Source of the DNA: a virus
DNA length: 64,000 bases
Reading direction: 5' to 3' (one strand)
IMG/VR virus record: IMGVR_UViG_3300020463_000018
Coordinates: 1 to 64,000 of that record
The notes below the pieces were generated by a model. That model did not search any database. It saw only the letters and a program-made list of their open reading frames with translations, and had not been told where the DNA came from. A program made the position numbers and the translations under genes. Of the stretch, positions 31,246 to 55,852 are shown piece after piece. Position 1 is the stretch's first letter. Each line of letters begins with the position of its first letter.

Positions 31246-31246
31246 A

Positions 31247-31270
31247 GGGGTTTCCGGAAAATCTTTTTTG
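31247..31270 (+). terminator. Weak candidate rho-independent terminator
   Basis: Just after the stop at 31245: GGTTT pairs with AAATC (31249-31253 with 31259-31263, one G-T pair), loop CCGGA, followed by TTTTTT. The stem is short, so readthrough would be expected. Confidence 0.35.
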
Positions 31271-31290
31271 TTAAGTATAAAATTTTAAAC

Positions 31291-31302
31291 TTGACTAGTC
31301 AA
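31291..31302. promoter_or_regulatory. 12-base perfect palindrome before virion gene
   Basis: TTGACTAGTCAA is a perfect inverted repeat, ending 16 bases before the ATG at 31319 and directly ahead of the ribosome site TAGGAG. It could be an operator or an mRNA hairpin affecting translation. No use is proven. Confidence 0.4.
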
Positions 31303-31318
31303 ATTTAGGAGTAAGACA

Positions 31319-32224: not shown

Positions 32225-32262
32225 GATTAAGATATCCATACAATGGACGAGGTAAAAGTTAA

Positions 32263-33668: not shown

Positions 33669-34544
33669 ATGAGCAAAGGTATTATAATCTTTGCATCAAA
33701 TAATGGTCTTATTGATTACATAAAAATAGCTTGTGCAAGTTCAGGGTTTGCTAGAAAAAATTTATCAGGATTTGACGAAATCTGTTTAATAACAGATAGC
33801 TTTTCATTAAAAAATAATAAAGAACTTATCGAAAAATATTTCGATAGAACCATTGTTCAAGATGCAGTAGAACAAGAAGGAAATATTCGTTTGTTTAAAG
33901 ATGGCGGCACTGGTAATTCAGAGTACGCACCATTTATAAACAAGACAAGAGGAGATGTATATTCTTTATCTCCTTACGATGAAAGTTTGGTTATCGATTG
34001 TGATTACTTTATAATGAGTAACACACTTGACCAAGTATGGGGTAGTGAAAACGACTTCATGATTAATTGTCAGTATAGGGATGTTGCCGGGAGACATGGC
34101 GGTAACGTTTCCTATATTGACGATTTTTCGATTCCAATGTATTGGGCAACAGTTTTCTATTTTAGAAAATCTGATTATACAAAGAACTTGTTTTCGCTAA
34201 TTGAACATATCAAAGACAATTACAAATACTATTATTTCTTATATAATTGTGCAGGCACTTTATATAGAAATGACTTTTCATTTTCTATGGCAATACATAT
34301 CATTAATGGAACAGTAACATCTAATGCACCTTCATTGCCTATTGACTATCTTAATAATAGTTTTGACTTAGATGAAGTGTTTAGAGTAAACAACAATAAA
34401 GATATTCTTATGTTTTGTGCTAAACCTGAAAACACAAATCAACATATACTTGCAAAGTTTAATAACACAGATATTCATATAATGAATAAAAAATCTATTG
34501 AAAGAGTTATTGATGATTTCTTAGATAATGGGAGTACCATATGA
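33669..34544 (+). CDS. Glycosyltransferase-like protein (GT-A type)
   Basis: 291 residues. The N-terminus KGIIIFASNNGLIDYIKIA starts a Rossmann-like fold, and VIDCDYF (Asp110-Cys-Asp112) is in the position of the metal-binding DxD of GT-A enzymes. It resembles the following gene in overall layout (SRGYIAIAQNN... ILDTDMVF). Donor and acceptor are unknown. The stop overlaps the next start by 4 nt (ATGA). Confidence 0.5.
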   Translation: MSKGIIIFASNNGLIDYIKIACASSGFARKNLSGFDEICLITDSFSLKNNKELIEKYFDRTIVQDAVEQEGNIRLFKDGGTGNSEYAPFINKTRGDVYSLSPYDESLVIDCDYFIMSNTLDQVWGSENDFMINCQYRDVAGRHGGNVSYIDDFSIPMYWATVFYFRKSDYTKNLFSLIEHIKDNYKYYYFLYNCAGTLYRNDFSFSMAIHIINGTVTSNAPSLPIDYLNNSFDLDEVFRVNNNKDILMFCAKPENTNQHILAKFNNTDIHIMNKKSIERVIDDFLDNGSTI

Positions 34545-35401
34545 GTAGAGGTTATATAGCTATCGCACAAAACAATAGAGAGCATGACTATTTAAAACTA
34601 GCATATGCAATGGCTTTAAGTTTGAAAGCAACACAAAAAGAAAATCAATTCTGTATTTGTGTAGACGAAGCTACAAAGTCTTCTATGCCTGACAAGTACA
34701 AAGAAGTGTTTGACCATGTTGTTGATATCCCATGGAACGATGATGCTGGTTCAAATCAATGGAAGATTCATAACAAGTGGAAGTATGTACACATGACACC
34801 TTTCAAAGAATCTATTATACTAGATACAGACATGGTGTTTACTCATTCAGTAGACCATTGGTGGGATTATCTTTCTAAGAAAGATGTATGGGTATGTACA
34901 AATGTAAAAACATTTAGAAATGAAGATGTAGATAGTGATTACTACAGAAAGAAGTTTACAGAATTAAATTTACCAAACGTATATAGTAACTTTACATATT
35001 TTAAAGAGTCGCAAATGACTTTTGAGTTCTTTCGTATGGTAGAAATTATCATGACACATTGGAATGTATATTATGATAAGTTTATGAAAGGTGTAGGACA
35101 AAACTGGATGAGTGCAGATTTGGCTTATGCGTTAGCAGTAAGATTATTAGATATTGAAGATGATGTTTGTGATTATGATATCAAAGATGTCCCTACATTT
35201 ATACACATGAAAAGTTTTATACAGAATATTCCTAGTCACAAGATATCTAGTAACTGGACACAAAATATAACAAGTCATTTATCAAATGATTTAAGAGTTA
35301 GAGTAGCTAACTTTGAACAATCTTTGCCTTTTCATTACGTTGAAAAGTCTTGGATGACTGATACAAAAATAGAACAGTACGAAAGGTTTTTAAACATATG
35401 A
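34541..35401 (+). CDS. Glycosyltransferase-like protein (GT-A/GT8-like)
   Basis: 286 residues. IAQNNREHDYLKLAYAMALS begins the fold and SIILDTDMVF holds a clear DxD at Asp95/Asp97. A Trp-rich middle and an HMKS motif near the C-terminal third could complete the donor site. It probably transfers a sugar from an NDP-donor in the host cytoplasm. A divergent paralogue of the gene just upstream. The next start overlaps its stop by 4 nt. Confidence 0.6.
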   Translation: MSRGYIAIAQNNREHDYLKLAYAMALSLKATQKENQFCICVDEATKSSMPDKYKEVFDHVVDIPWNDDAGSNQWKIHNKWKYVHMTPFKESIILDTDMVFTHSVDHWWDYLSKKDVWVCTNVKTFRNEDVDSDYYRKKFTELNLPNVYSNFTYFKESQMTFEFFRMVEIIMTHWNVYYDKFMKGVGQNWMSADLAYALAVRLLDIEDDVCDYDIKDVPTFIHMKSFIQNIPSHKISSNWTQNITSHLSNDLRVRVANFEQSLPFHYVEKSWMTDTKIEQYERFLNI

Positions 35402-35982
35402 AAATTTTAAGTACAAAATATGAAGAAAATAAAAAGTTAAGAGTAGTAACTTTCGATAGTACTGGTAAGATAATTGAAATATCTTCACGTGAACCAAAAG
35501 ATGACAATCTATTATTTGCATACTTTGAACTAGATGATGTCAAAGACTTTATGACAGGTGAAGCAAGATTATCAGACCACTTGATTAAAAAGACAGACGA
35601 TGTTTTTACTTACGAAATAATTAAAACAAAAGTTACTATCAAAAAAAGAATTGTTGAAAGTCAATTATACATGATTGACAAACAAGAAAAAGCAGAATTA
35701 GATATTACATTTGATGGTGAGTATCTAGTTTTTAAACCTAGTAAAGAATTAAAAGAAAGTACCGACGTAGATGCATCACAAAATGTAACAATCGCAGGAA
35801 AAGATTCTCATGTATTTTTTATTACATACGAAGGAAAGCCTGAACATTTAATACAAACAATACGTATTCCTTTTTCTGAATTGCTTTCGTCCTCAGTTTC
35901 TATTAAATTCGACTATAATAAATACAGTATAAGTTTATACACCCAGAAGTTTCTGGAAACATATTCATTCAGGAGATTATAA
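35398..35982 (+). CDS. Hypothetical protein (194 aa)
   Basis: 194 residues, charged, with alternating hydrophobic strands (KVTIKKRIVESQLYM; AELDITFDGEYLVF; SVSIKFDYNKYSISLYTQKF). A beta-sandwich is likely. No enzyme motif or export signal. It is coupled by overlap to the glycosyltransferase-like genes on both sides, so it may bind or assist them. Not recognised. Confidence 0.6.
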   Translation: MKILSTKYEENKKLRVVTFDSTGKIIEISSREPKDDNLLFAYFELDDVKDFMTGEARLSDHLIKKTDDVFTYEIIKTKVTIKKRIVESQLYMIDKQEKAELDITFDGEYLVFKPSKELKESTDVDASQNVTIAGKDSHVFFITYEGKPEHLIQTIRIPFSELLSSSVSIKFDYNKYSISLYTQKFLETYSFRRL

Positions 35983-36956
35983 TGAAACTTGAAATTGGCG
36001 AACTAGATGTATTCTATTTAAGCTATGACGAACCCAATAAAGAAGAACATTGGGCAGATATTATCAGTAAATTTCCTTTTGCTAAAAGAGTAGATGGCGT
36101 AAAGGGATTTGACAATGCACACAAAGAATGTGCAAAACAAAGTGACACAGATAGATTTATTACTATCGATGGTGACAATATTGTTGAAGAAAAATTCTTT
36201 GACATTGAACTAACATTCCCAGAAGAAACAGACTTAGCAAATTCTGTTGTTTCTTGGTCAGCTAAAAACATGACTAACGGTCTTGTCTATGGTAACGGAG
36301 GCATTAAGTGTTGGCCTGTGCAGTTAGTTTTAGATATGAAGACCCATGAAAATGCAGAAGACGAAACAAAGAAAGTAGACTTTTGTTGGGACTTGAATTA
36401 TATTCAGATGAATAACATTTATTCACGTGTGTTTAATTCAGGGTCTCCTTTTCAAGCCTTTCGTGCAGGATATCGTGAAGGTGTTAAGATGTCACTTGAC
36501 GAAGGTAAAAGAGTACCTATTGAAGAATTTAAGAAACGTATATGGCCTAAAAACTATGAACGTTTGATTACATGGTGCAACATCGGTGCAGATGTAGAGA
36601 ACGGTTTATGGGCATGTTATGGTGCAAGACTAGGTGCATATGACGTAAATCTAAACAATGATTTTATACTTGAATGGATTTCAAGCTATGATTGGTTCAA
36701 AGAATATTTTGAAAACACAATATTTCCTAAGTTCGAAGGCGGAGATATGAAGTGTGATAAGACTAAATTAGTTTGGGACTATGATAAATTATTTGATGAA
36801 AGTGTAAGAATAGGCGACATACTTGAAGATAAAATCGGTATGGAACTTTGCGATCCTACTCCTGAGGTTGCAAGATTCTTTAAACGTGTATATGTCAACC
36901 CTCCAAGAGTAAACAATCCACTAGCAACAGAAAAGCAAACTGGATGGGATAAGTAA
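35982..36956 (+). CDS. Glycosyltransferase-like protein with DGD motif
   Basis: 324 residues. DVFYLSYDEPN, RVDGVKGFDNAHKECAKQS, then RFITIDGDNIV (Asp63-Gly-Asp65) follow the order of small GT-A folds: strand, recruiting helix, metal DxD. The rest is rich in Trp, Tyr and Cys (about 10 Trp and 6 Cys). The acceptor is unknown. The start overlaps the upstream stop by one base (TAATG), and six bases separate it from the first radical SAM gene. Confidence 0.5.
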   Translation: MKLEIGELDVFYLSYDEPNKEEHWADIISKFPFAKRVDGVKGFDNAHKECAKQSDTDRFITIDGDNIVEEKFFDIELTFPEETDLANSVVSWSAKNMTNGLVYGNGGIKCWPVQLVLDMKTHENAEDETKKVDFCWDLNYIQMNNIYSRVFNSGSPFQAFRAGYREGVKMSLDEGKRVPIEEFKKRIWPKNYERLITWCNIGADVENGLWACYGARLGAYDVNLNNDFILEWISSYDWFKEYFENTIFPKFEGGDMKCDKTKLVWDYDKLFDESVRIGDILEDKIGMELCDPTPEVARFFKRVYVNPPRVNNPLATEKQTGWDK

Positions 36957-36962: not shown

Positions 36963-38531
36963 ATGGCTAATTATGATGATGATGCGGTAGTTACCAGAGA
37001 TAAACTAAACGCATTATCTCCATCAATGTGTATGGCCAAGTGGCTACAAGTTAGTTTACACTTACCACAAGGCAGAACACATAGTTGTTATCATCCACCG
37101 ACACATCCTATTCCTTTAGCTGAACTTAAAAAGGATGTTAATGCATTACACAATACCACATTCAAACTAGAAGAAAGAAAGCAAATGAAATGTGGCGACC
37201 GTCCTGAAGGTTGTCAATATTGCTGGAACGTTGAAGATGCACCTGATGCCCCAAAGGGTGGTAGACTAAGTGATAGACATTATCGTTCAAGTGAATGGTG
37301 GGTAAAAGAAGTATGGGATGAAGTAGTTAATAATCCATGGGATCATAACATAACTCCTAGATATGTTGAGGTAAACTTTAATCAAGCATGTAATCTAAAG
37401 TGTAGTTATTGTTCACCGCACTTATCTACTGCATGGGAAGATGATATCAAAAAGCATGGAGGCTTTCGTTTTAGCAACGGCACAGGTCATAATGATATAG
37501 ATTATTTGCGTAAGACTGGTCTTATGCCTTTAGAAGTAGCACGTAAAGACAATCCTTATATCGAAGCATTTTGGAAATGGTTTCCACAGATATACAGAGA
37601 CTTAAAAGTTTTTCGTATGACAGGCGGCGAACCGTTAATGGATAAAAACACTTTTAAAGTATTTGATTATGTAAATCAAAATCCAAATCCTTTTTTAGAT
37701 TTAAGCATTACATCAAATATGTCTCCTCCACAGGATGCATTGTTTGAAAAATTTATTGATAAAATAAAAGCATGTGAAGAACCTCGTGTATGGGAAGATC
37801 CAGAAAGATTTAATCCTGATAGTGGTAATCATTGGTATGTTGCTCCTGCATACAAACATTTTAGTTTATATGTTAGTGTTGATGGTGTAGGAAAACAAGC
37901 TGAATACATGCGTGATGGTTTAGACTTTGACAAAATGTACAATAATTGTCGCAGAGTATTAAGTGAAACTGATGGTACAGAGATTTCTTTTATTAATACT
38001 TTTCAATTATTAAGTATACCAAACTTACGTGGGTTTTTACAAATGGTCTTAGACTTACGTGAAGAATTTGGATATGAAAATCAACAAGACAAAATTATAC
38101 AACCGCCTGACCATCATGGTTACAAACACCCACCTTTTGTTAGAAAGAAACGTCAACGTATTTGGTTTGATATTCCGTATCTAAGATACCCTGATTGGAT
38201 GACGATACAGTTAGCAGACCACGAAATGTTAGATAGCATAGAAAAAAACGTTGAGTTCATGAAAGAAAATGTTTTACCTAATGATTTGTATGGTAGAAAG
38301 TATACAGGATTTAAAAACTATGAAGTTTTAAAGCTAGAACGAGATTTGGCATGGGCTCGACAAGGGCTAAATATGAATGATGATGAGTTAACAACCCAGC
38401 TGGTACGTTTCTATGAATATTTTACAGAATATGATAGACGTAGAGGTTTAAACTTTTTAGAAGCCTTTCCAAATATGAAAGATTTTTGGAACGAAGCTAA
38501 AGAATTGTATGAGGAAAAATATGGATCTTAA
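36963..38531 (+). CDS. Radical SAM protein with N-terminal twitch-type domain (1)
   Basis: 522 residues. The radical SAM triad is Cys143, Cys147, Cys150 (ACNLKCSYC), and TGGEP lies at 220-224, the SAM amino-group site. Before the core, Cys23, Cys42 (SCYHPP), Cys77, Cys84 and Cys87 (CQYCW) form an N-terminal auxiliary Fe-S region, as in twitch-domain radical SAM proteins of uncharacterised function. It is closely paralogous to the gene at 39928 (shared AKW, CxHPPxH, IPLxELK, YCW, STAW). It would make a carbon-centred radical on a peptide or sugar substrate, which is unknown. It shares 11 nt with the next gene. Confidence 0.82.
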   Translation: MANYDDDAVVTRDKLNALSPSMCMAKWLQVSLHLPQGRTHSCYHPPTHPIPLAELKKDVNALHNTTFKLEERKQMKCGDRPEGCQYCWNVEDAPDAPKGGRLSDRHYRSSEWWVKEVWDEVVNNPWDHNITPRYVEVNFNQACNLKCSYCSPHLSTAWEDDIKKHGGFRFSNGTGHNDIDYLRKTGLMPLEVARKDNPYIEAFWKWFPQIYRDLKVFRMTGGEPLMDKNTFKVFDYVNQNPNPFLDLSITSNMSPPQDALFEKFIDKIKACEEPRVWEDPERFNPDSGNHWYVAPAYKHFSLYVSVDGVGKQAEYMRDGLDFDKMYNNCRRVLSETDGTEISFINTFQLLSIPNLRGFLQMVLDLREEFGYENQQDKIIQPPDHHGYKHPPFVRKKRQRIWFDIPYLRYPDWMTIQLADHEMLDSIEKNVEFMKENVLPNDLYGRKYTGFKNYEVLKLERDLAWARQGLNMNDDELTTQLVRFYEYFTEYDRRRGLNFLEAFPNMKDFWNEAKELYEEKYGS

Positions 38532-39924
38532 GGCACACATGAATTCAAATACTTTCTGTGCATTGACATGGATGCATACAAGTTCCGAACCATATGGAAC
38601 TTGTAGAAGTTGTTGTATTGCCCGTGAACATATTAAAGATGATAAGGGTAATATCTTGTCTTTAGCAGATTACAGTATTACAGAAGTTCTTAATAGTCCT
38701 TATATGCAAAAATTACGTACTGATATGTTAAGAGGACAAAAGCCTAAGCAGTGTCAGACATGTTGGGAAGACGAAGATAACGGCAAAGAAAGTAAAAGAC
38801 TTTTATATAATAGAATGATAAAAGACTTTGGATTTAAAATTAACAATGCAGTTGATAATTGTAGACCAAGAGATGTACAAATTAATATAGGTAATACTTG
38901 TAATTTAAAATGTAGAACATGTTCGCCTGTTTGTTCATCTAAGTGGGTAAAAGAATGGAAAGATAGAGACAGAAAGATTTGGAAACCTGAAATAAATGTT
39001 AACATGAATGATTATGATAATAGTAAGTTCTGGTTAGATATTGATGGCTGGTCAAAGACAGTGCAAAGAATGGAAATAATGGGTGGTGAGCCTTTCTACA
39101 ACAAGAGTTTTAAAAGACTTGTACATAGATTAATTGATAATGGTTCAAGTAAGAATATTAGTTTAAATCTAAGTACAAATGGTACAATATATGATGATGA
39201 GTTGATGAGACTTATGCTGAAAAACTTTAAAGCAATAGGTGTAAATGTAAGTATTGATGGTGTATATGAACACTTTGATTATATAAGACATGGTGTTGCA
39301 TGGGAAAAAGTGAAACAAAACTTAGATGACTTTTTTAAATTGTATGCAGACCAACATCAGTATAAAGAACCTAATGGTTATTGGAAAATGAATATGAGTT
39401 ATACAGTAACTATAGGATTATTAAACGTACATTACTTGAGAGACATACACGAATTTTTTGAAAAGAATTACATAAACAAAACTGGAATAGCTAATCATTA
39501 TCGTGGGCAAAAAGAAAATGCTTTAGAAGGAGATAGGCAAGTTCCTAGACTTGAGATATGGAACAATGTTGTATACTATCCAAGTTACTATAGTTCAAAT
39601 AATATGCCAGAAGAAATTAAAGATAAAGTATTACATAGAGTTACTAACCCAGAAGATTATGGGTTAAGAAAATGGCACCCTGATACGTACAATAATAATA
39701 TTGTACCAATCATAAATCACACTAAAAGAAAAGGCGGTGACAAAGAATGGATGGCATTTGTAAACGAAACGATACACACAGATTCATATAGAAAAGAAAA
39801 GTTTGAAACAACATTTAAAGAATTATTTAAGATATATAAGCCCTATTGGTTAGAGGCTATGAAAGAAATAACAACTCCCCAGGCTCAATTTAAAATTGAA
39901 GCACTAGCTGAGAATAAAGGATAG
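38521..39924 (+). CDS. Radical SAM protein with N-terminal twitch-type domain (2)
   Basis: 467 residues from the ATG at 38521, chosen because GAGG precedes it; another ATG lies four codons earlier. Auxiliary Cys13, Cys28, Cys31, Cys32, Cys78, Cys81 (CQTCW) precede the SAM triad Cys127, Cys131, Cys134 (TCNLKCRTC). GGEP starts at about residue 188. It belongs to the subgroup with 42173 and 45406 (FCxxxxxH start and CC in the auxiliary region). Substrate unknown. Confidence 0.82.
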   Translation: MDLKAHMNSNTFCALTWMHTSSEPYGTCRSCCIAREHIKDDKGNILSLADYSITEVLNSPYMQKLRTDMLRGQKPKQCQTCWEDEDNGKESKRLLYNRMIKDFGFKINNAVDNCRPRDVQINIGNTCNLKCRTCSPVCSSKWVKEWKDRDRKIWKPEINVNMNDYDNSKFWLDIDGWSKTVQRMEIMGGEPFYNKSFKRLVHRLIDNGSSKNISLNLSTNGTIYDDELMRLMLKNFKAIGVNVSIDGVYEHFDYIRHGVAWEKVKQNLDDFFKLYADQHQYKEPNGYWKMNMSYTVTIGLLNVHYLRDIHEFFEKNYINKTGIANHYRGQKENALEGDRQVPRLEIWNNVVYYPSYYSSNNMPEEIKDKVLHRVTNPEDYGLRKWHPDTYNNNIVPIINHTKRKGGDKEWMAFVNETIHTDSYRKEKFETTFKELFKIYKPYWLEAMKEITTPQAQFKIEALAENKG

Positions 39925-39927
39925 TAA

Positions 39928-41475
39928 ATGCCAAGGCAGTGGAATAAAGGCGAAACGTTAGAGCAATACAAAGAACGTATGATTGATTCGATAAGCGAAT
40001 CATATTGTGCGGCTAAATGGTATAATGCTACTATCTGGCTAGGTCATGGACAGACTGCTAGTTGTCACCACCCACCAGGTCATTGGATTCCTTTAGAAGA
40101 ACTTAAAGACAACTATACTGCTATTCATAATACAAAGCATAAGAAACTTATGCGTAAGTATATGCAAGAAGGCAAGCGTCCTGCTGAGTGTGAGTATTGT
40201 TGGAAAGTTGAAGACATGGGTAAAGGCCATGTATCAGACCGTACATTTAAAACAGAAATTTTCAAAGACGAAGATATTCATAAGAGTGCAGAAATGCCAT
40301 GGGACGAAAACGTTATGTTACGTACCTTAGAAATATCTTTTGATAGAGCATGTAACTTTTCTTGTTCGTATTGTAATCCTGCATTTAGTACTGCATGGGT
40401 AAAAGACATTAACACATATGGCGGATATGAAAATATACAGAGTGACGGAAGAGGTCACTTTGTTGATACGGCAGAATGGGCAAAACCAGCCGCAAAACAC
40501 GAAGAAGATAATCCTTATATTCAAGCCTTTCACAAATGGTGGGAGAATGGATTAGCAGATAATCTTGAAGAAATTCGTATTACAGGTGGTGAGCCTATAA
40601 TGCACAAAGGTACTTGGAAAATGTTTGATTGGTTTGAACAAAATCCTGATAGAGGTAGAAACATGCGTTTCGCAATCAATTCAAATCTTTGTCCTGCAAA
40701 ACCAAAACTACTTGAAAGACTTATTGAGAAATCATGGTTTATTCCTAACTTAGAAATATATACTTCAATGGAAGCCACTAAGGATCAAGCAGAATATATT
40801 CGTGATGGTCTCGATTATGATTACTGGATAGAAAATATACATACAGTATTGAAAAAAGGAAACATACATAAGATGCACATGATGATGACTATCAATTCAT
40901 TGTGCTTAACAACTATTACAGAATTCATGGACGAAATGTTAGAGATACGTGATGAGTATGGGCAAAGGGCTCCTAGTATGACATTAAACATTTTACGTTT
41001 CCCATCTTTTCAGAGTGCGGCTATACTTCCTGAACACATTAAAACTTTCTACAAAGACAAGTTATATCGTTGGTTCAATAGCCCTAGACCACAGATGAAA
41101 TTACATGACGGTGAGAAAGCAAGTGTACAAAGACTTATTGATTATCTTGATATCGTCAAAACTCCACACAAGAACACGGCAGAAACACCTAAACTCTATC
41201 ACGACTTTAAAACGTTTTTTGAACAATACGATGTAAGAAGAAATAAAGATTTCAAAGAAACATTTAAGGGACCTATCGCAGATTGGTATGAAACATTACA
41301 AGCAGACGTACCAACTAAAGAAGATATTCTTATCAAGAAAGATACAATAAAAATTTACAATAGAGCAGGTGACCCGGCAACTACTGAATCATATGAAGGC
41401 GGCGATGACGTACATGAAAAAATAGGCGGATGGGATACTAAGAATGATGCTCTTGGTGGGGTGAAAGTTGAATGA
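39928..41475 (+). CDS. Radical SAM protein with N-terminal twitch-type domain (3)
   Basis: 515 residues. Auxiliary Cys27, Cys46 (SCHHPP), Cys88, Cys91 (CEYCW), SAM triad Cys142, Cys146, Cys149 (ACNFSCSYC), and TGGEP about 65 residues later. Clear paralogue of the gene at 36963 along its whole length. The C-terminal tail is acidic and Gly-rich and without Cys pairs, so there is no C-terminal SPASM set. It overlaps the sulfotransferase-like gene by 4 nt (ATGA). Confidence 0.82.
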   Translation: MPRQWNKGETLEQYKERMIDSISESYCAAKWYNATIWLGHGQTASCHHPPGHWIPLEELKDNYTAIHNTKHKKLMRKYMQEGKRPAECEYCWKVEDMGKGHVSDRTFKTEIFKDEDIHKSAEMPWDENVMLRTLEISFDRACNFSCSYCNPAFSTAWVKDINTYGGYENIQSDGRGHFVDTAEWAKPAAKHEEDNPYIQAFHKWWENGLADNLEEIRITGGEPIMHKGTWKMFDWFEQNPDRGRNMRFAINSNLCPAKPKLLERLIEKSWFIPNLEIYTSMEATKDQAEYIRDGLDYDYWIENIHTVLKKGNIHKMHMMMTINSLCLTTITEFMDEMLEIRDEYGQRAPSMTLNILRFPSFQSAAILPEHIKTFYKDKLYRWFNSPRPQMKLHDGEKASVQRLIDYLDIVKTPHKNTAETPKLYHDFKTFFEQYDVRRNKDFKETFKGPIADWYETLQADVPTKEDILIKKDTIKIYNRAGDPATTESYEGGDDVHEKIGGWDTKNDALGGVKVE

Positions 41476-42176
41476 GAAAACATCTAATAGTCTTTTATGG
41501 ACGAACAGGAAGTACTCTTGTAGACCATCATGTATCAAGAAACAAATGCGATCCAGTATTTGAATTCTGGAATAACGGATTTGAATCAAGTGAAATACAT
41601 GCAGATGAATATCAAATGTATTTTGATAAACTCAAACCTTTACAAATAGAATGGTCTATGAAGTATCATGTTATGACAGGTGCTCATGTTAAAGGTCTCC
41701 CTAAAAAAGATTACAAGATTAATTTAGATGAGTCAGATACATTTTTTAAAAAACTAAAAGTTACAAATTTACATTTTAGTTTTAGATTAGATTGTGTAGA
41801 TACGATTTGTAGTCATATGATTGCAGATTTAGATAATACTTGGGTTGTTACAGATAACCAAGTAAAAACACATAAGAAAAGACATATAGATCCTGAATAC
41901 GTTAAGAATGTATGTAACGGATATAATCTTAGTTATAAACTTTATAATGAGTATGTAAAAAGATTTAAAGATGAATATGAAATTGAATTCTATCCTTATG
42001 AAAAATTATATACAAAAATTGATATTGATAATGATCCTAGAGGAATGAGAAAACAATTAACGAAAGAAGAAAAAAGAAATTTAATTGAAAACTATGATGA
42101 AGTAGTTAAGATTGCTAAAGACTATCCTTTCTATCATGGTAAGATAAATGAAAACACTGGAGTGTTAGAAGTATGA
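41472..42176 (+). CDS. Sulfotransferase-like protein
   Basis: 234 residues. The N-terminal LIVFYGRTGSTLV (GRTGSTL at 10-16) is the PAPS 5'-phosphosulfate-binding loop type of sulfotransferases, and FRLDCVDTICSHM in the middle could supply the 3'-phosphate-binding Arg/Ser. Smaller than most (about 250-300 residues). It would move sulfate from PAPS to a sugar or protein hydroxyl. It is sandwiched between radical SAM genes with 4-nt overlaps on both sides. A general P-loop kinase fold cannot be excluded. Confidence 0.55.
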   Translation: MRKHLIVFYGRTGSTLVDHHVSRNKCDPVFEFWNNGFESSEIHADEYQMYFDKLKPLQIEWSMKYHVMTGAHVKGLPKKDYKINLDESDTFFKKLKVTNLHFSFRLDCVDTICSHMIADLDNTWVVTDNQVKTHKKRHIDPEYVKNVCNGYNLSYKLYNEYVKRFKDEYEIEFYPYEKLYTKIDIDNDPRGMRKQLTKEEKRNLIENYDEVVKIAKDYPFYHGKINENTGVLEV

Positions 42177-43573
42177 CAACAAAGAAGGTGATACCTATCT
42201 GGAAGAGCGACGGAAGTTGTGCAGAAGAAAGCGATAATAAAGTTTTCTGTATGGCTCCATGGTCTCATACCTATATATCGCCTCAAGGTGAACGTAGACT
42301 TTGTTGTGCATCACGTGAAGAACACTCATTCCAAAAACAATACATAGATGCATCAAACGATGAACGATATGGAAAAGTAAAAGATTCAAAAACAGATGCA
42401 GATGATTTTAATCCATTGACGTTAGATGAGCATTGGAATAGTTCTTACATGAAAGACATTAGAAAAAAACTAATGGCTGGAGAACGTATACCTCAATGCG
42501 ATGTTTGTAATGATGATATTCTAAGTTTATCATCTTATCGTAAATGGTTTACTGGTGTGTTATTCAGAGATAAGATACAAGAAGCATTTGATAATACAGA
42601 CGAAGATGGGCATACATCAATGCCTGCTATATCTTTTGATTATAGATATTCAAACTTATGTAATTTCAAATGTCGTATGTGTGGTGAACAGTTATCAAGT
42701 TCATGGGAAGCAGAAAAGAAGAAACATGGAATGTGGTCTATTGAAAATCAACCATTCATGCAACCTACTGTAAAACAAAAGATGGTTAAGTTTCAACGTA
42801 CTGTAGTTGAGCCTGAATTTAAAAAAGCAATCAGCGATGGTATAGTAGAAGAAATCTATTGGGTAGGAGGAGAACCATTAATGTATGATATACATTGGTG
42901 GGCTTTAAATGAAATGGTTGCTAATGGCTCAGCAAAGAATTGTCATTTAAGATATAACTCTAACTTGTCAAGAACTACATTTAAAGGTATGGAGTTATTT
43001 GATTATCTACCTAAGTTTAAAAACTGGTTGATGTGTGCAAGTATTGATGGCACAGGAGATATCGTAGAGTTTATTCGTAAAGGTATTGTATGGGACGAGT
43101 GGTTAGCTAACTTTAAGAAAGGACTAGCGGCACCTCATGGTAAAGAAAGAATGTTATTTGACTTGACTATTACAGGACCAGGCATGTTTAGTATTAAAGA
43201 TTTATTTGATTTGAGTTTAGAATTAGATGTAAGGATAGAAACAAAGATTATGTTCGCCTTTCATGCTGACATTGTGATGAGTCCTTTTGCATGGCCTAAA
43301 CATATATTGACTAGACACTTAGATGAATTATTAGCTTATATTGAGCCAAAGGCTACTCCTAAGCAACAAACTCTAGTGAATACGTTGAAGGGTATGAAAG
43401 AAAGACAAACGTTTGGAGAACAATGGCCTGAGACACATGAACAACAATTTTTTAATGGTAGAAACTATCAAGAGCAATTAGACCGAATCAGACAAGAACA
43501 ATTTAGATTAGAAGATATCTATAAAAGGGATCCAGAATTATATGAGTGGTGGACAAGACAGAAAAAGAATTAG
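42173..43573 (+). CDS. Radical SAM protein with N-terminal twitch-type domain (4)
   Basis: 466 residues. Auxiliary Cys26 (FCMAPW), Cys44-Cys45, Cys109 and Cys112 (CDVC) come before the SAM triad Cys163, Cys167, Cys170 (LCNFKCRMC). VGGEP follows about 60 residues later. CASIDG in the core matches the usual IDG strand of radical SAM peptide/sugar enzymes. It overlaps the SGNH-like gene by 32 nt, the longest same-strand overlap in the island. Confidence 0.8.
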   Translation: MTTKKVIPIWKSDGSCAEESDNKVFCMAPWSHTYISPQGERRLCCASREEHSFQKQYIDASNDERYGKVKDSKTDADDFNPLTLDEHWNSSYMKDIRKKLMAGERIPQCDVCNDDILSLSSYRKWFTGVLFRDKIQEAFDNTDEDGHTSMPAISFDYRYSNLCNFKCRMCGEQLSSSWEAEKKKHGMWSIENQPFMQPTVKQKMVKFQRTVVEPEFKKAISDGIVEEIYWVGGEPLMYDIHWWALNEMVANGSAKNCHLRYNSNLSRTTFKGMELFDYLPKFKNWLMCASIDGTGDIVEFIRKGIVWDEWLANFKKGLAAPHGKERMLFDLTITGPGMFSIKDLFDLSLELDVRIETKIMFAFHADIVMSPFAWPKHILTRHLDELLAYIEPKATPKQQTLVNTLKGMKERQTFGEQWPETHEQQFFNGRNYQEQLDRIRQEQFRLEDIYKRDPELYEWWTRQKKN

Positions 43574-44411
43574 AGCATTTGGTTGCAGTCATACCGCACA
43601 ACATCAATGGTTGTGGTTGTGTGCTAACATACCTGCGGATAAATTTACCACTAAACAATTTTGGGCTGAACTTAAAAATGAATACAGACTAGGCAAACAT
43701 CTAGGTATCAGTATTGATAGCGATTATAATCCGTGTTCATGGTCATCAGAAAATATAGATATGCAAAGTTGGGCAATGAGTGGATCTGGATTTGATGCAC
43801 AAGTAAGTATGTGGAATACTTTACTACTCAATGATGATATTGATAAAGATGATATAATAATATTTCAGTTAACAAGTCCTCACAGATTTACTATACCCAT
43901 TAATGGTGATAGTACTAACTACTATGGAGCAAGACTGAGAGATAGTTATAATAACGGCACACTAGAGAAACACGGTTGTTTTCAGCTTATCGAAGATGAA
44001 TACTTTACTGGAAAGCCAACATATGGATTTGATCCTTCTTGTTCAAATGTATTAGACATATCAAAACTAACAATGAATAACAAACATAATATATATGGGC
44101 AGACAGGTAGACTATCAGAATTTGATCCATTTAGAATGCACATGATATTATCATCATTGCTATCAATTAAATCTTTTAATAAAAAATTATTAGTGCTTGT
44201 AGGACATGAAGGTTCATTTTGGAGAAAGTCGCTTAGTAGATTATACGATGCGTTTGATAAATTTGATATTGATTATATGAAAGTAGGTATTGTAGAATTT
44301 GCTAAAGACAACAAGTACGGTGTAGAAAAAGATGGGCATAGTACACAACAAGGATATCAAGCATATTCAAATAATGTAAAAGCAAAGCTAAGACAAAAGG
44401 AATGGTTATAA
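43542..44411 (+). CDS. SGNH-hydrolase-like protein
   Basis: 289 residues. AFGCSHT (Gly14-Cys-Ser16-His) near the N-terminus is the nucleophile block, with Cys in place of the Asp of GDS. AMSGSGFDAQ matches the Gly block, IIIFQLTSPHRF block III, and DGHSTQQGYQAY the D-x-H end motif (DGH). A cytosolic esterase or O-acyltransferase is possible. It starts inside the preceding radical SAM gene; no better start is seen because the GCSH motif begins 14 codons in. Confidence 0.6.
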   Translation: MSGGQDRKRIRAFGCSHTAQHQWLWLCANIPADKFTTKQFWAELKNEYRLGKHLGISIDSDYNPCSWSSENIDMQSWAMSGSGFDAQVSMWNTLLLNDDIDKDDIIIFQLTSPHRFTIPINGDSTNYYGARLRDSYNNGTLEKHGCFQLIEDEYFTGKPTYGFDPSCSNVLDISKLTMNNKHNIYGQTGRLSEFDPFRMHMILSSLLSIKSFNKKLLVLVGHEGSFWRKSLSRLYDAFDKFDIDYMKVGIVEFAKDNKYGVEKDGHSTQQGYQAYSNNVKAKLRQKEWL

Positions 44412-45406
44412 TGAGTACACTTAGAATTATATTTTCCAGAAACCCTGCTAAGTCACCATTAAGAGGCGAATACAATTTACGTAAGCCTAATCCAAAAGAT
44501 GATATCTATATACTTGATTGGAAATTGACAGACGGGTGTGCAACTACTGATAAGTTTATATCTTTAATGCAGGAAACATTTAGATTAGGTGCAATAAAAC
44601 AATCGCCTGAGCATGATAGTAATGGTGTAAGAATTAATTATAATCTCTATCCTTCTATATCTCCTGATGAGTTTCGTCTTATGAAAGAACGTTTAAATTC
44701 TGTAGTTAAAAAATGTGGTGAAATAGAAGGAGTTCCAAAAGCTGATACATCATTAGAATTAGATACAAGTACAACTGATTTAGAATTAGATAAACTAAAT
44801 GCATTACATTTATATTTCGAAGATGTTTCAAATGACAAATCAGTAAACCTAAGAGAAGATTATCTTGATGGTGATATACAAACATACTTAGAAGAAATTA
44901 ATCAGTTAGTACATACAATGGAAGATTGGAGAGAACAAGATTGGGACGAATACTTTGGATCTGTCAGACTTGCTCCTAGACATGGAGAAACATCAGAAGA
45001 ATTAACGATGCCATTGCAAAAAGAAGATTATGCAAGATTTACAACCGACGCATACTTTGGAGATTTGATGCTTGACTATTTTAGAATTGGAAAAGACTTA
45101 GATGCATGTAGATTGACAAACGATACTAAGCTAGTTCGAACTAGAGGATTAGCACAACAAAATACAGTACATACTTGCTTTTCGTTTTTATTTCATAAGT
45201 ATCTTAATGGTTTTACTTGGCAATGGAAGGGCATTGATGAGTGGATTGAAGAAAATAATCTAGGAGAGTATTATGATTATACTGCTCCTGAGTTTACTAA
45301 AGGTAGAGTATGTTTAGGAAAATTAGATATGCGAGGGAAAACAATAGAACAACTTATGCCTGAAGTTATGAAAATTACAGGTATAATAAACGTGGAAATA
45401 ATTTAA
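44411..45406 (+). CDS. Hypothetical protein (331 aa)
   Basis: 331 residues from the ATG at 44411, which shares one base with the preceding stop (TAATG); a start three codons earlier is possible. The start LRIIFSRNPAKSPLRGEYN resembles FTRNPAKRFSYGL in the 47838 fusion, but the rest does not follow. A long acidic helical middle (DTSTTDLELDKLNALHL) and a Trp-rich C-terminus (FTWQWKGIDEWIEE) are visible. No catalytic motif. Between two radical SAM units, same operon. Confidence 0.6.
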   Translation: MSTLRIIFSRNPAKSPLRGEYNLRKPNPKDDIYILDWKLTDGCATTDKFISLMQETFRLGAIKQSPEHDSNGVRINYNLYPSISPDEFRLMKERLNSVVKKCGEIEGVPKADTSLELDTSTTDLELDKLNALHLYFEDVSNDKSVNLREDYLDGDIQTYLEEINQLVHTMEDWREQDWDEYFGSVRLAPRHGETSEELTMPLQKEDYARFTTDAYFGDLMLDYFRIGKDLDACRLTNDTKLVRTRGLAQQNTVHTCFSFLFHKYLNGFTWQWKGIDEWIEENNLGEYYDYTAPEFTKGRVCLGKLDMRGKTIEQLMPEVMKITGIINVEII

Positions 45407-46593
45407 TGAATGATACTTTTTGTCCATTACTGTTTCAGCATTTAGCAACACACCCACATGGTGGGGTGACACATTGTTGTATTGCGGATCACAGAAATGC
45501 ATTAAGTAGTTCACGTGACGATAATAGATATTATAATTTAAATCGTGATACTGTTCAAGACACGATGAATTCTTTATCGTTTCGTAAAGCAAGATTAGAA
45601 GTATTAGATAATAAGAAACCACAAGCATGTGCTAGATGTTACGTAGAAGAATCAAAAGGCATGGCATCCAAACGTATAGAAGAAATTAAAAACTATCCTG
45701 AGTATACTCTAGAAGTCGCTAGGAACGCCACTGATAGCGATGGCTACATCAAAGACGTACAACTAGACTTTGTTGAATTAAGATTAGGTAATGTATGTAA
45801 TGTTGCATGTCGTACTTGTAACCCTGCGAGTTCAAGTAAGTGGAGAAATGATTATAATGAGTTACAAAAGAAAACTACTTTTCAATTAACAAGCTATGAC
45901 ACAATGGAAGGATTTAGATGGCCAGAACGTGAAGGATTCTGGGAAGATTTATTAAAACATTGTGACCATGTTAAAACATTTTACATCAACGGTGGTGAGC
46001 CAACTTTAATCAAACAACACTTTAAGTTTTTAGAAAAACTTGTAGAGATGGGTAAAACAGATATCAAACTATGGTATAATATCAACATGACTAATATGAA
46101 TGATAAAGTTATAGACTTGTGGAGAAAGTTTGATAAAGTAAAAGTAAGTTGCAGTATTGATGACTTAGGAGATAGAAATCATTACATCAGATATCCTACA
46201 CAATGGGAATCAGTAATTAAAAACTTCTTGAGATTAAAAGAAGAAGGCTTTGAATTAGATGTAACACAAACAGTATCATGGATGAACTATTCTACACTAG
46301 GAGATTTTTATAACTTCTTTAATAGAGAACACGGTGTTCATGTACATCACAACTATGTATATGATCCTGATATTTTATCTCCAGCAGTGTTACCAAAAGA
46401 ATTAAGAGAACGTATACATAATAAGTTTTCAAACGTATTTGATAAATGGAAACTAGATGAATTTAAAAATATGTTTGGAAATGCTGATAGAAAAAACAAA
46501 TGGCAACAAGCTATAGAATATACAAAGAACTTAGACGAGATAAGAAAGCAAGATATAAAAGACTATCTGCCTGAGTTTAAGGAGTACTTCTAA
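45406..46593 (+). CDS. Radical SAM protein with N-terminal twitch-type domain (5)
   Basis: 395 residues, the shortest of the group. Auxiliary Cys6, Cys24-Cys25, Cys75, Cys78 (CARCY), SAM triad Cys131, Cys135, Cys138 (VCNVACRTC), NGGEP about 65 residues later and CSIDD in place of SIDG. The closest relative in the window is 38521 (both have CxxC followed by SKR). It shares one base with each neighbour (TAATG), indicating coupled translation. Confidence 0.8.
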   Translation: MNDTFCPLLFQHLATHPHGGVTHCCIADHRNALSSSRDDNRYYNLNRDTVQDTMNSLSFRKARLEVLDNKKPQACARCYVEESKGMASKRIEEIKNYPEYTLEVARNATDSDGYIKDVQLDFVELRLGNVCNVACRTCNPASSSKWRNDYNELQKKTTFQLTSYDTMEGFRWPEREGFWEDLLKHCDHVKTFYINGGEPTLIKQHFKFLEKLVEMGKTDIKLWYNINMTNMNDKVIDLWRKFDKVKVSCSIDDLGDRNHYIRYPTQWESVIKNFLRLKEEGFELDVTQTVSWMNYSTLGDFYNFFNREHGVHVHHNYVYDPDILSPAVLPKELRERIHNKFSNVFDKWKLDEFKNMFGNADRKNKWQQAIEYTKNLDEIRKQDIKDYLPEFKEYF

Positions 46594-47831
46594 TGTATTT
46601 CTATAATGATATTCTTCATGTAGACTTAGAGATGAGTAGTCTTTGCAATCTCAAATGTCCTATATGCAATAGAAGAAACGGAGGTGGAATCAAGAATACC
46701 GGATACAAAGAAACGTATCTATCTCTTGAAAGGTTCAAAGAATGGTTTGATGAATCATTTATAGAACAGTTATATTCTATGCAAATGTGTGGCAACTATG
46801 GCGATGCTATGACTAATCCTCAATTAGTACCTGTACTACAGTTTATAAAAGAAAGAAACCCTACTATAGGGTTGACAATGAATTCAAATGCAAGTGGTAG
46901 AAATGAAAAATTCTGGGCAGACTTAGGAGTGTTATTTTCTGATAATAAAAAATCTTTATTGACATTTAGTGTAGATGGGTTAGAAGATACTAATCACATA
47001 TACAGAAGAGGAACACATTGGTCTAAGATAATGACTGCTATGAAATCTTTTATAGGTGCAGGTGGACAAGCCGCATGGGAGTTTCTAGTATTCAAACACA
47101 ATCAGCATCAAGTAGAAGAAGCAAGACAAATGGCGTTAGATATGGGGTTTGCACACTTCTATGCTAAAGAACCACTAGGCTTTGTAAATAGACCTATGTC
47201 AGAGCATGGTAAAAATTATAATTCATGGATGCGAGTATTTAAAGATAACGGAGACTTAGATTATATTATTGAACCTAAAGACAAAACAAAAAACACAAGC
47301 GAGATAAAATTATATCTAAAAGAATCTGGGTTTACTAAATCAGATGAAGATGTTGACTCTTTAGCTTTAGCTAAGAAATTTAATGATCCAAATATATTCA
47401 GACAATTACCTACTGAAAAAGCAACTATCAAAAAAGATAGAGTGTTGTCTGAATGGGAACAAAAGTTAGGAAGAACAAAAATCGATTGTATAGTGATTAA
47501 ACCTAGAAGTATATTTGTAGGACATGATGGTTTAGTTTTCCCATGTTGTTTCACGGCGAGTAAATACTATGGTAATCCTAACTCACATGAGGTATCACAA
47601 CTACAAGATTTTATAAATGATTATGGACCAAGAAATATAAGTCTAGAACACAATCATCTAAGAGACATAATTGATGGCGATATGTTTCAAGGAAGATGGG
47701 TAGACAACTTCAACGATAATGATATAAGAAATAAAAGACTTATCACTTGTTCTTTATTCTGTGGCAAAGAGACAAACGAAAATTACATGAACACAAGAAA
47801 GAGTGTACAACTAGATAGGAATTTAATTTAG
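46593..47831 (+). CDS. Radical SAM protein with C-terminal SPASM-type cysteines (6)
   Basis: 412 residues. The SAM triad is at the very N-terminus: Cys18, Cys22, Cys25 (LCNLKCPIC), with no N-terminal auxiliary domain. FSVDG matches the radical SAM core. The C-terminal part has DCIVIKPRSIFVGHDGLVFP followed by CC, and later CSLFCG, which is the layout of SPASM/twitch auxiliary clusters at the C-terminus. This makes it a different architecture from the other five. Substrate unknown; peptide or sugar enzymes of this layout are both known. Confidence 0.82.
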   Translation: MYFYNDILHVDLEMSSLCNLKCPICNRRNGGGIKNTGYKETYLSLERFKEWFDESFIEQLYSMQMCGNYGDAMTNPQLVPVLQFIKERNPTIGLTMNSNASGRNEKFWADLGVLFSDNKKSLLTFSVDGLEDTNHIYRRGTHWSKIMTAMKSFIGAGGQAAWEFLVFKHNQHQVEEARQMALDMGFAHFYAKEPLGFVNRPMSEHGKNYNSWMRVFKDNGDLDYIIEPKDKTKNTSEIKLYLKESGFTKSDEDVDSLALAKKFNDPNIFRQLPTEKATIKKDRVLSEWEQKLGRTKIDCIVIKPRSIFVGHDGLVFPCCFTASKYYGNPNSHEVSQLQDFINDYGPRNISLEHNHLRDIIDGDMFQGRWVDNFNDNDIRNKRLITCSLFCGKETNENYMNTRKSVQLDRNLI

Positions 47832-47837: not shown

Positions 47838-50504
47838 ATGTTTTATAATAAGAAAACACTAAGAACAGATAGAATAAAAACAACTTGGCATCACCCGAAA
47901 GGTGCTATTACAGGCAATGTATATGATTACGATATGTATGAAAATTACATTGACGAAATAGATCCTAGTGCCAGATATGAAAAGTATTATTTTATTTCAC
48001 CTTTTATTGCAGTTAGACAATATGAAGAACGTCTTAACAAAATGGGCGAGCCATATAACTATCATAAAGCTATTGATATGATAGTTAGTGATGCAATTAA
48101 ATCACAGACAATAAATGACGATTTAGAAGAAGGTAATACTTGTGTTATCTTTGATATGGGTGTTGAACATATTGAAAGAGAAGTGTATGATAAAATTAAC
48201 GCACACTTCAAGAAAAGCAAACATAGTAACAATGTCAAGTATTGGACAATGATTGAAAATTGTAACTGGACAGATGTTATAGAAATTGTTAGTGCATCAA
48301 GTAGTACTTGTAGATTTGCAGATTGGGATTATGAAAAAGGTATAGCACAAGCAGATCCAGAATACTTTGAAACACATTATGCACCAGAGATAGAAAGTTT
48401 AATACCTAAACATGTTCTATTTCTAAACAGGAGATTAAGAAGTCATAGAGTTTTACTTATGGCAGAATTCTTATACAGAAAAGAAAATATTAATAAAAAC
48501 TTCCATTTGAGTTTTCTAGGTTCAGAGAATGAAAACATTACAAAAGAAATGGAAAAGAAAACATTGTTAGGATATTCATGGAACTTTGAGCATCTTGACA
48601 AAAAAGTTTTTGAAGAATTATGGGACGATTGGTATGGCAACAAACTTCCATATTCGCTAGAAACAAGCAGAGATGAATGGTTAGCAGGTTCTAACTTGAA
48701 TAGAGTTACAGAGATGTTACCTTTTAGAAGAAAGTCGTATGTAGAACTTATTACAGAGTTTACTACGACAAATGATGGTTACGTTTGTGTAAGTGAGAAA
48801 TTATCACAAGCTATTTTATCTAAGAAGCCATTCATCATTGCTGGCGATAAACATTATATAAAAGTACTAAAGACATTAGGATTCAAAACGTTCAGTGATT
48901 TCTGGGACGAAGGGTATGATGAATTAGATTACAATGATAGATTACTTTCTATTGTTGACACAGTACAAGACATTATTAAAAATACTGAAATAAAAACAGA
49001 TAGTGACAACAATATTATCTATTCAGATAAGATGCAAGAAATACTAGAATACAATTATAATCATTACAAAAAAGTATATGCACCTAATGTATATAAAAGA
49101 ATATTTAGGTCTTTATCTGTAGGCAATGTATATGTAGATAAACCAGGACTTACTAAAGAAAATATTGGCAAGTACGAATGGACTAATAGTCAAGTCTGGT
49201 ATCAAGAGTCAAGTAACATCGTATATATTCCTGTATATGGAATTGCTGATTATTTTTTCTACGATGTGATTGCTCCTGAGTTAGGATTTAGATTAATGGA
49301 TAAAAAGTTTTTAGACTTAACTAAAACAAGAAACTTAGTATTCACTAGAAATCCTGCAAAGAGATTTAGTTACGGGTTAAGTAAGTTAGAAAACAAAGAT
49401 AATTTTTCTTTAAGCAATTTATACTTACAGCCTCAAACATCATTCTATGACCAAAATCATATTCATTGTACTATAGACATAGATGCACCTAATACTAATG
49501 GATTACATGTAGGTACTAATTGGGGCTATGGCAAAGAAGAAGGATTCGGTGAAAGAGAATTAGTACGAGATATATACCTATTGTTTGAAAAGTATTATAC
49601 ACCCGAAGAATTTCCTGAAGTAATAATGTCAGATGAAGTAAAAGAATATTATAAGAAAGACTTTATGTATTACTATAAAAGAGGTTCTTGGAGATTTAAA
49701 AAAGCAAACAATCAAGATAATATATCATCGAAGTTTAAAGAATATATGAAAAACTTCAATGTCGAATTTAAAGATGAATTAAAAAAGATATCTGCTACAA
49801 CACATTCTGAATATTTTAAAGGTAGTTTAAAAGAAGGTTACTGGTTAAATCATCAAATGATAATGGACAATCTAGGATTGTGCTTTGCACCTAAAGATAT
49901 AAAGATACTAGATGTAGGAACACACTTTGGTTTTATACCTCACTTTTTAAAACGAGAAGGATTTACAAATGTTAATTGTTGTAACTCATATAAAGAAGCA
50001 GGTGATACATTACCAGAGTTAAAAAATATATGGAACATAATGGGAATTAGACCATATGATTTACATATACATACTAAAAAACGATTTGAATTAGACCAAA
50101 AATATGATATAATATTCATTACTATGTCAAATATATTTTGGAGATCCGATAAGATTGTTAGATTACACGGAGGAAGTGTCAATCAAGCATGGGAAATTGT
50201 GGATAAAAAAGGAGAGAAGAATACGTTCTTTACACCTTACGAAGTAGGAGATTTAGATTTCTTTATAAAAAATATATATGAGTTTCTTACTCCAGGAGGA
50301 GTAGCAGTAGTTCAACCTTATCCTTACGTATATAATATGTTTGAAGGATTTAAAGATGAACAATCAATGTTACAGTTTTATCAAAATCCTGAGATAGCAC
50401 ATGAAACTCCTAGGTCTACAGAACACAACCCTAATAAAGAACTAAATGACTTCTTTGTTATACAACGAGAAGGTAATAGAGATGATGAAGGCCCGATATG
50501 GTAA
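47838..50504 (+). CDS. Multidomain glycosyltransferase/sulfotransferase/methyltransferase-like protein
   Basis: 888 residues. Residues about 190-430 contain PKHVLFLNRRLRSHR and CVSEKLSQAILSKKPFI-x-AGD, then LGFKTFSDFWDEGYDE, a pattern of fucosyltransferase-like phage glycosyltransferases. Residues about 470-620 hold FTRNPAKRFSYGLSK (Arg near 504) and LQPQTSFYDQNHIHCTIDID, resembling a sulfotransferase 3'-phosphate site. Residues about 688-860 have ILDVGTHFGF, then FLTPGGVAVVQPYP, a SAM-dependent methyltransferase. Each domain call is by motif only. The protein could assemble and cap one glycan in a single chain. It overlaps the next gene by 7 nt. Confidence 0.55.
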   Translation: MFYNKKTLRTDRIKTTWHHPKGAITGNVYDYDMYENYIDEIDPSARYEKYYFISPFIAVRQYEERLNKMGEPYNYHKAIDMIVSDAIKSQTINDDLEEGNTCVIFDMGVEHIEREVYDKINAHFKKSKHSNNVKYWTMIENCNWTDVIEIVSASSSTCRFADWDYEKGIAQADPEYFETHYAPEIESLIPKHVLFLNRRLRSHRVLLMAEFLYRKENINKNFHLSFLGSENENITKEMEKKTLLGYSWNFEHLDKKVFEELWDDWYGNKLPYSLETSRDEWLAGSNLNRVTEMLPFRRKSYVELITEFTTTNDGYVCVSEKLSQAILSKKPFIIAGDKHYIKVLKTLGFKTFSDFWDEGYDELDYNDRLLSIVDTVQDIIKNTEIKTDSDNNIIYSDKMQEILEYNYNHYKKVYAPNVYKRIFRSLSVGNVYVDKPGLTKENIGKYEWTNSQVWYQESSNIVYIPVYGIADYFFYDVIAPELGFRLMDKKFLDLTKTRNLVFTRNPAKRFSYGLSKLENKDNFSLSNLYLQPQTSFYDQNHIHCTIDIDAPNTNGLHVGTNWGYGKEEGFGERELVRDIYLLFEKYYTPEEFPEVIMSDEVKEYYKKDFMYYYKRGSWRFKKANNQDNISSKFKEYMKNFNVEFKDELKKISATTHSEYFKGSLKEGYWLNHQMIMDNLGLCFAPKDIKILDVGTHFGFIPHFLKREGFTNVNCCNSYKEAGDTLPELKNIWNIMGIRPYDLHIHTKKRFELDQKYDIIFITMSNIFWRSDKIVRLHGGSVNQAWEIVDKKGEKNTFFTPYEVGDLDFFIKNIYEFLTPGGVAVVQPYPYVYNMFEGFKDEQSMLQFYQNPEIAHETPRSTEHNPNKELNDFFVIQREGNRDDEGPIW

Positions 50505-55803: not shown

Positions 55804-55837
55804 ATAATTCTACTTTATTATTATTAACTACATACTT

Positions 55838-55845: not shown

Positions 55846-55852
55846 CATAAAA

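Follow-up and report, generated by a model that had tools for sequence, protein, structure and literature searches.

In pelagimyophages, tail-fibre genes share a variable host-recognition cluster with genes for GT8 glycosyltransferases and with cassettes of radical SAM genes (Zaragoza-Solas et al. 2020, PMC7029224). Twelve radical SAM genes, along with Fe-S assembly genes, were reported for a T4-like marine viral genome (Nishimura et al. 2017, PMC5332604), and the Campylobacter phages CP220 and CPt10 carry, close to baseplate genes, an exchangeable module in which five radical SAM genes are joined by two for nucleotide-sugar transferases (Timms et al. 2010, PMC2853527). In the cultured Vibrio phage K566 (OZ196521), four N-twitch enzymes are interleaved with two GT8 genes, with PagP adjoining.

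Here we analysed a stretch of 64,000 nucleotides (the window) from a marine, jumbo-like phage, in which an array encoding five N-twitch radical SAM proteins (A–E, Table 1) sits just behind tail genes. The pelagimyophage combination of tail-fibre, GT8 and radical SAM genes in one region recurred here, as judged by position and weak GT8 similarity. In contrast to pelagimyophages, the baseplate protein (gp6) was nearest to those of RaK2-like phages and Salicola phage SCTP-2; no pelagimyophage was among the matches listed, and a pelagimyophage identity was rejected. The T4-like genome resembles this phage in being marine and in its multi-copy radical SAM genes. Its description gives no subfamily, order or domain architecture, and neither Fe-S assembly genes like those it carries nor other Fe-S supply genes were found among the window ORFs scanned. 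No gene in the stretch read of CP220 and CPt10 had the N-twitch layout (best A6 scores of 27 and 21 bits). Phage K566 encodes members of the CC type only (see below), with neither A nor C and about 24% identity to E, and its pairing of N-twitch enzymes with GT8 genes is independent of this phage lineage.

Cysteine architecture of the radical SAM proteins

All five proteins were encoded by complete ORFs. The ORF of B opens at 38509; the start at 38521 given in the initial annotation is a later in-frame ATG. Each protein had the N-terminal layout C..[S/C]C..CxxC, followed after 46–56 residues by the CX3CX2C triad, with GGEP starting a further 54–71 residues beyond the triad. These ranges are close to those first noted (50–65 and 55–75). 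The four N-terminal cysteines, the triad and GGEP were invariant across A–E (5/5), and the four-cysteine pattern was retained in 457 of the 479 relatives with a subfamily label. Among the labelled relatives, those of A and C were of the SC type and those of B, D and E of the CC type.

The proteins exceeded the curated whole-protein cut-off of NF033640 ('N_Twi_rSAM', 170 bits) by at least 129 bits over nearly the full profile. They matched this family far better than any named enzyme, and no cofactor-pathway equivalog was among their family matches. B, D and E matched the Pfam SPASM family PF13186 N-terminally, above its gathering score, while A and C formed a distinct SC subgroup without a Pfam SPASM match. 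Since the NF033640 scores were far over the cut-off and PF13186 was found at three N-termini, the cysteine architecture is not a chance pattern. In SPASM/twitch proteins the auxiliary cysteine domain follows the core, whereas in A–E it precedes the core, so that the reverse order initially noticed was real. This architecture is not new: it is catalogued as NF033640, whose name gives neither function nor subfamilies. A literature search for NF033640 by name retrieved no paper.

A sixth radical SAM protein (F), missed in the initial annotation, was encoded directly adjacent to the array. Its cysteine set lies after the core in the conventional order. It alone among the six radical SAM proteins had a C-terminal auxiliary cysteine domain, and its NF033640 score was below the cut-off.

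The AlphaFold2 model of C (pLDDT 85) matched anSME, SuiB and viperin in the PDB. It had the core fold in common with these and with BlsE and MoaA, all solved structures in which the auxiliary domain, unlike that of C, is at the opposite end or absent. Taken over the entire query, their TM-scores reached no more than about 0.3, and none of the solved chains aligned with the N-terminal domain at the sequence level. Proteins, peptides and nucleotides are all among the substrates of the closest solved structures.

Table 1. Features of the radical SAM array and its surroundings, with positions in the window.
Feature	Position	Strand	N-terminal Cys	NF033640 (bits)	Description
f4 and two f2 proteins	30571..33234	+			Upstream virion (tail-fibre-position) module
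f3	33290..33667	+			Conserved 125-aa protein opening the gapless operon; 56 loci; 1-base gap to GTs
f0 copy 1	33669..34544	+			Glycogenin/GT8-like glycosyltransferase, DxD (DCD)
f0 copy 2	34541..35401	+			Glycogenin/GT8-like glycosyltransferase, DxD (DTD); 66 loci
f5	35398..35982	+			Between GTs and f1; no function assigned; 37 loci
f1	35982..36956	+			GT-A-like protein directly upstream of A
A	36963..38531	+	23/42/84/87	299	N-twitch radical SAM, SC subgroup; CX3CX2C at 143, GGEP at 221; own clade
B	38509..39924	+	17/35-36/82/85	310	N-twitch radical SAM, CC subgroup; PF13186 at residues 17-86
C	39928..41475	+	27/46/88/91	308	N-twitch radical SAM, SC subgroup; usual direct partner of A
Interspersed gene	41472-42176	+			Sulfotransferase-like P-loop, by eye
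D	42173..43573	+	26/44-45/109/112	330	N-twitch radical SAM, CC subgroup; PF13186 at residues 26-113
Interspersed gene	43542-44411	+			SGNH-like, by eye
f8	44402-45406	+			Interspersed gene; no function assigned
E	45406..46593	+	6/24-25/75/78	365	N-twitch radical SAM, CC subgroup; PF13186 at residues 6-79
F	46593..47831	+		61	Sixth radical SAM; core at 18-25; Cys set 299/318-319/386/390 at C-terminus
Downstream region	47838..58182				Many nucleotide-sugar genes
Epimerases	50498, 53322				Downstream of array
DegT aminotransferase	52261				Downstream of array
C-methyltransferase	54212				Downstream of array
Cupin	55411				Downstream of array
Cytidylyltransferase/MannoseP-isomerase	57409				Downstream of array

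Subfamilies and gene order in phages and bacteria

In a phylogenetic tree, A grouped with C (support 0.98), B with E (0.94) and B with D and E (0.85). A second tree supported the split between A/C and B/D/E at 100/100, which, with the SC and CC types, bears out the two subgroups proposed earlier. The paralogues were separated by 2.8–5.5 substitutions per site. Each fell into its own clade spanning dozens of contigs and was nearer to counterparts elsewhere than to its sister copies. Recent tandem duplication in this phage was thus ruled out, as every copy belonged to an old clade of its own. Separate acquisition from unrelated families was ruled out as well, since all five passed NF033640. Of the repeated duplication suggested in the initial annotation, the relatedness of the five held, but duplication within this phage did not. 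A–E are ancient subfamilies of NF033640 and not fresh copies.

Hundreds of contigs from uncultured phages encoded proteins of this family, as did 30 of the 114 sampled genomes of the phylum Bdellovibrionota. In 52 of 78 loci C came directly after A, often with an overlap of 4 or 11 bases, and in 56 of 77 the first A was preceded by f1. In this window and a few relatives, B lies between A and C. The order was A-C-D-E-D'-B in phage L068 and C-D-E-D'-B-A-C on chromosome L107 of a predatory Bacteriovoracaceae bacterium. The two share C-D-E-D'-B, with the members falling in matching clades, and because of this collinearity A–E most likely act as a set; together they probably constitute a single pathway. 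The predicted conservation of each subgroup as a set across phages was supported, and it extended to one bacterial chromosome. Successive reactions on a single substrate, as proposed at the outset, are plausible from the collinear set; no substrate emerged from the analysis.

Operon context

The array belongs to a single gapless operon (33290 to about 53334) that follows the virion-module genes and is headed by a pair of glycogenin/GT8-like proteins and a GT-A-like protein. The profile match of the former to glycogenin-1 was weak (best E=0.0014), and no Pfam GT family matched them. The AlphaFold2 model of the GT-A-like protein f1 (pLDDT 87) had the glycosyltransferase SunS as its best PDB match (E=5e-4, TM only about 0.3). 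The top PDB matches were largely GT-A enzymes, also at TM about 0.3, and a DGD motif was present. Profile searches of the PDB yielded nothing useful for f1 or f2. A, f0 and f1 had no match among 50,697 GenBank phages, and f3 had none in GenBank phages either. No Pfam family scored above its cut-off in the three genes interspersed within the array. Sister loci carried NeuB, a UDP-sugar dehydrogenase and a carbamoyltransferase as cargo. Transmembrane-like segments were absent from every protein from 30571 to 52277, which fits cytosolic work. RNA families and tRNAs were not found.

Candidate roles of the set

As the best explanation, held tentatively, we propose that the set performs radical modification of a glycan, or a glycosylated fibre, in the host-recognition region. 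A and C would work as an adjacent pair, followed by D, E and the accessory B, and together they would supply the modifying part of an accessory operon that comes directly after the virion genes. The two glycogenin/GT8-like glycosyltransferases and f1 would lay down or handle a sugar. The radical SAM enzymes would next modify the glycan or glycosylated virion protein via hydrogen abstraction by the 5'-deoxyadenosyl radical, with the N-terminal auxiliary cluster as a putative electron relay or substrate holder. The likeliest purpose would be to diversify what the virion or infected cell displays in host recognition. The GT8/glycogenin similarity, the GT-A-like f1, the sister-locus cargo and the downstream nucleotide-sugar genes argue for this proposal, as do the gene pairing in phage K566 and the pelagimyophage clusters.

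The weak fold match of f1, the E value of only about 1e-3 for f0 and the mixed substrates of the solved structures nearest to C count against it, and so does the context of the bacterial arrays. Where loci were read completely (L104, L105, L107, L110 and L154), these stood among housekeeping genes, with no glycosyltransferase directly beside the array and no recognisable fibre gene. In a controlled test, Pfam GT2 was no commoner beside bacterial arrays (3/127) than farther off (4/126), a lack of glycan-gene enrichment that weakens the glycan reading. Furthermore, three Bacteriovoracaceae-type genomes (G014–G016) were tested for f1 and lacked it.

The main rival, which we consider rather unlikely, is that the enzymes directly alter side chains of the upstream virion or fibre proteins (f2/f4 type) while the glycosyltransferases glycosylate independently. 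The array adjoins the f4–f2 module, whose homologues in Pseudomonas phage Paride come after the giant virion protein without glycosyltransferase or radical SAM genes, as expected if the modification is optional. Moreover, the model of C matched anSME and SuiB, enzymes with protein or peptide substrates. Gly-Tyr repeats in six of the f2 proteins fetched also favour this rival; with no more than six carriers, they were rejected as a general substrate, and their lack in f2 of this window counts against it. Against direct protein modification also stand the absence of an RRE/PqqD domain in the family-profile searches and of a recognisable fibre gene by the bacterial arrays.

Alteration of the host surface (LPS or capsule), leading to superinfection exclusion, seems improbable. 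It was proposed for the glycosyltransferases of the pelagimyophage clusters with their GT8 genes and radical SAM cassettes (PMC7029224), and PagP beside the K566 array would suit it. However, the operon encodes no membrane-bound glycosyltransferase or flippase, and the glycosyltransferase and radical SAM genes form a gapless run ending the virion module. Synthesis of a RiPP-like ribosomal peptide or small-molecule natural product is highly improbable. Multiple radical SAM enzymes do share one operon and the best fold match of f1, SunS, is a peptide S-glycosyltransferase, but the genes overlap or almost touch, leaving no space for a precursor gene, no RRE was found, and among the conserved genes f3 alone is small; a RiPP maturation cluster was rejected on these grounds. 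The least credible reading is a broad stimulation of host metabolism, the role put forward for the 11–12 radical SAM genes per phage in CP220 and CPt10 (PMC2853527), given the missing cofactor-pathway equivalog and the tail-adjacent position and fixed set, which argue for a specific task.

Finding the subfamilies as an ordered set in phages and on a bacterial chromosome makes a candidate pathway of what was an anonymous family; its minimal unit comprises A, C, D and E, together with D' and B. The cultured Vibrio phage with four members and the predatory bacteria with the set are tractable test systems. Prey recognition by Bdellovibrio uses phage-tail-fibre-like MAT proteins (PMC10769870). A bolder, quite unlikely proposal is that the collinear set constitutes a dedicated, previously undescribed multi-step pathway of large marine phages and predatory Bdellovibrionota, which may chemically modify recognition fibres, or glycans on them, and thereby tune target-cell recognition. 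If this is true, the stepwise alteration of recognition fibres by radical chemistry would represent a novel type of post-translational system.

Gene content and spacing of the array

The initial annotation had described five paralogous radical SAM genes with an N-terminal Cys set (A–E), and all five were found in the window. The proposed division into two subgroups also held, as A and C were placed apart from B, D and E in a tree of 229 representatives. All of A–E exceeded the cut-off of NF033640 (NCBIfam N_Twi_rSAM), and in B, D and E the N-terminus also matched Pfam SPASM. Directly after E, with an overlap of 1 base, came a sixth radical SAM gene (F) whose Cys set was C-terminal to the core, the conventional domain order; both domain orders adjoined within one operon. 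In an AlphaFold2 prediction for C (pLDDT 85), the core matched anSME, SuiB, viperin, BlsE and MoaA; these fold matches do not settle substrate choice.

From 33290 to about 53334, all genes lay on one strand with intergenic gaps of −44 to +6 bases, spacing that suggests a single transcript. The upstream virion-type genes (30571–33234) were separated by 38–73 bases. The run comprised, in this order, f3 (125 aa), two f0 genes for glycogenin/GT8-like proteins, f5, f1, A–F with interspersed genes, and nucleotide-sugar genes. The f1 protein, modelled at pLDDT 87, matched GT-A enzymes weakly, and E-values were weak for both f0 and f1. No protein encoded in 30571–52277 had a transmembrane-like segment.

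Features of the phage loci and placement of the radical SAM genes of L107, a Bacteriovoracaceae chromosome locus, in the careful tree
Feature	Position	Description or placement	Support
A	36963–38531	N-twitch radical SAM	
B	38509–39924	N-twitch radical SAM	
C	39928–41475	N-twitch radical SAM	
D	42173–43573	N-twitch radical SAM	
E	45406–46593	N-twitch radical SAM	
F	46593–47831	radical SAM	
Window gene	41472	sulfotransferase-like (by eye)	
Window gene	43542	SGNH-like (by eye)	
Window gene	55899–57353	FG-GAP repeats and transmembrane-like segment in one protein	
Window gene	58187–58573, minus strand	S-adenosylmethionine decarboxylase-like (PF02675)	
Vibrio phage K566 array (L183)	8467–20436	four N-twitch radical SAM genes	
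L107_7288		within C clade	99/97
L107_8652		within D clade	100/100
L107_9983		within E clade	100/99
L107_11234		pairs with D' gene of L068	100/98
L107_12456		pairs with B gene of L068	100/99
L107_14107		within A clade	99/88

Relatives in viruses and identity of the phage

Two scans of IMG/VR yielded 18 and 79 loci, with at least 599 stretches matching C; the main results were drawn from metagenome contigs. Each window gene had its own clade in the 229-representative tree, with broad labels that were transferred to near copies, low support for the A clade (0.32) and a D label spanning two distinct lines, D and D'. A widely recurring order was virion genes, f3, f0, f0, an f5-like gene, f1, A and C, with D and then E further on. 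The first A was immediately preceded by f1 in 56/77 loci and A immediately followed by C in 52/78 (most commonly overlapping by 4 or 11 bases), although these are not independent events because many contigs are closely related. Variable cargo of the phage arrays included NeuB-like and NodU-type carbamoyltransferase genes (L084, L085, L092, L093, L024 and others). In six loci (L048, L057, L059, L063, L064 and L067), f2, a virion-module protein encoded upstream of the array, carried Gly-Tyr repeats (GYGYGYGY).

Among 50,697 GenBank phages, A, f0, f1 and f3 had no match, and E had distant relatives, mostly in Vibrio phages. Pseudomonas phage Paride had the giant virion protein and f4- and f2-like genes with no annotated glycosyltransferase or radical SAM gene behind them; the glycosyltransferase–radical SAM module is therefore optional. 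Multi-copy radical SAM genes were previously noted in CP220/CPt10 phages (PMC2853527), but unlike A–E these were not N-twitch in the stretch examined. A marine T4-like genome has 12 radical SAM genes (PMC5332604). A literature search for NF033640 by name found no paper. The following appear to be new: the division into subfamilies, the pairing of A and C together with f1, an array order collinear with that in the chromosome of a predatory bacterium, and an A/C type without a GenBank phage match at the sensitivity used.

The window covers 64 kb of a 66,382-bp IMG/VR virus record. It was assigned to a T4-like myovirus from genes for a baseplate wedge protein, a late sigma factor, SbcCD-like proteins and ClpP. 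Since the baseplate protein was nearest to those of Salicola phage SCTP-2 and RaK2-like Klebsiella phages, and the giant virion protein to PA5oct/Paride-type Pseudomonas phages, the phage was grouped with large phages rather than with pelagimyophages. The S-adenosylmethionine decarboxylase-like gene might affect SAM supply.

Relatives in bacteria

In a scan of genome contigs, arrays occurred mainly in Bdellovibrionota, of which 30/114 sampled genomes had a match at E ≤ 1e-50. Matches to NF033640 at E ≤ 0.001 reached 33 in a bacterial genome and 21 in a virus record (198 kb). The order C-D-E-D'-B-A-C in L107, beside RlmH-, RsfS- and ObgE-like genes (named by eye), has the stretch C-D-E-D'-B in common with A-C-D-E-D'-B in the phage locus L068, and their members fell in matching clades. 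Phage and bacterial members interleaved in the careful tree with at least 12 label changes, and genes have therefore moved repeatedly between phages and bacteria.

Possible modification of glycans or of fibre proteins

A link to glycans rests on f0 and f1, the sugar-nucleotide cargo, a published pelagimyophage host-recognition cluster (PMC7029224) and Vibrio phage K566, whose radical SAM genes lay among two GT8 genes and one GT4-like gene, adjoining PagP. Vibrio phage K566 is cultured and usable for tests. Two results count against this link: bacterial arrays showed no excess of glycan genes beside them (GT2 in 3/127 close by, compared with 4/126 farther away within those loci), and f1 was not found in the three Bacteriovoracaceae-type genomes tested. 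Direct modification of fibre proteins is therefore a serious rival. The strongest result is the conservation of the genes as an ordered set, which argues for one multi-step task.
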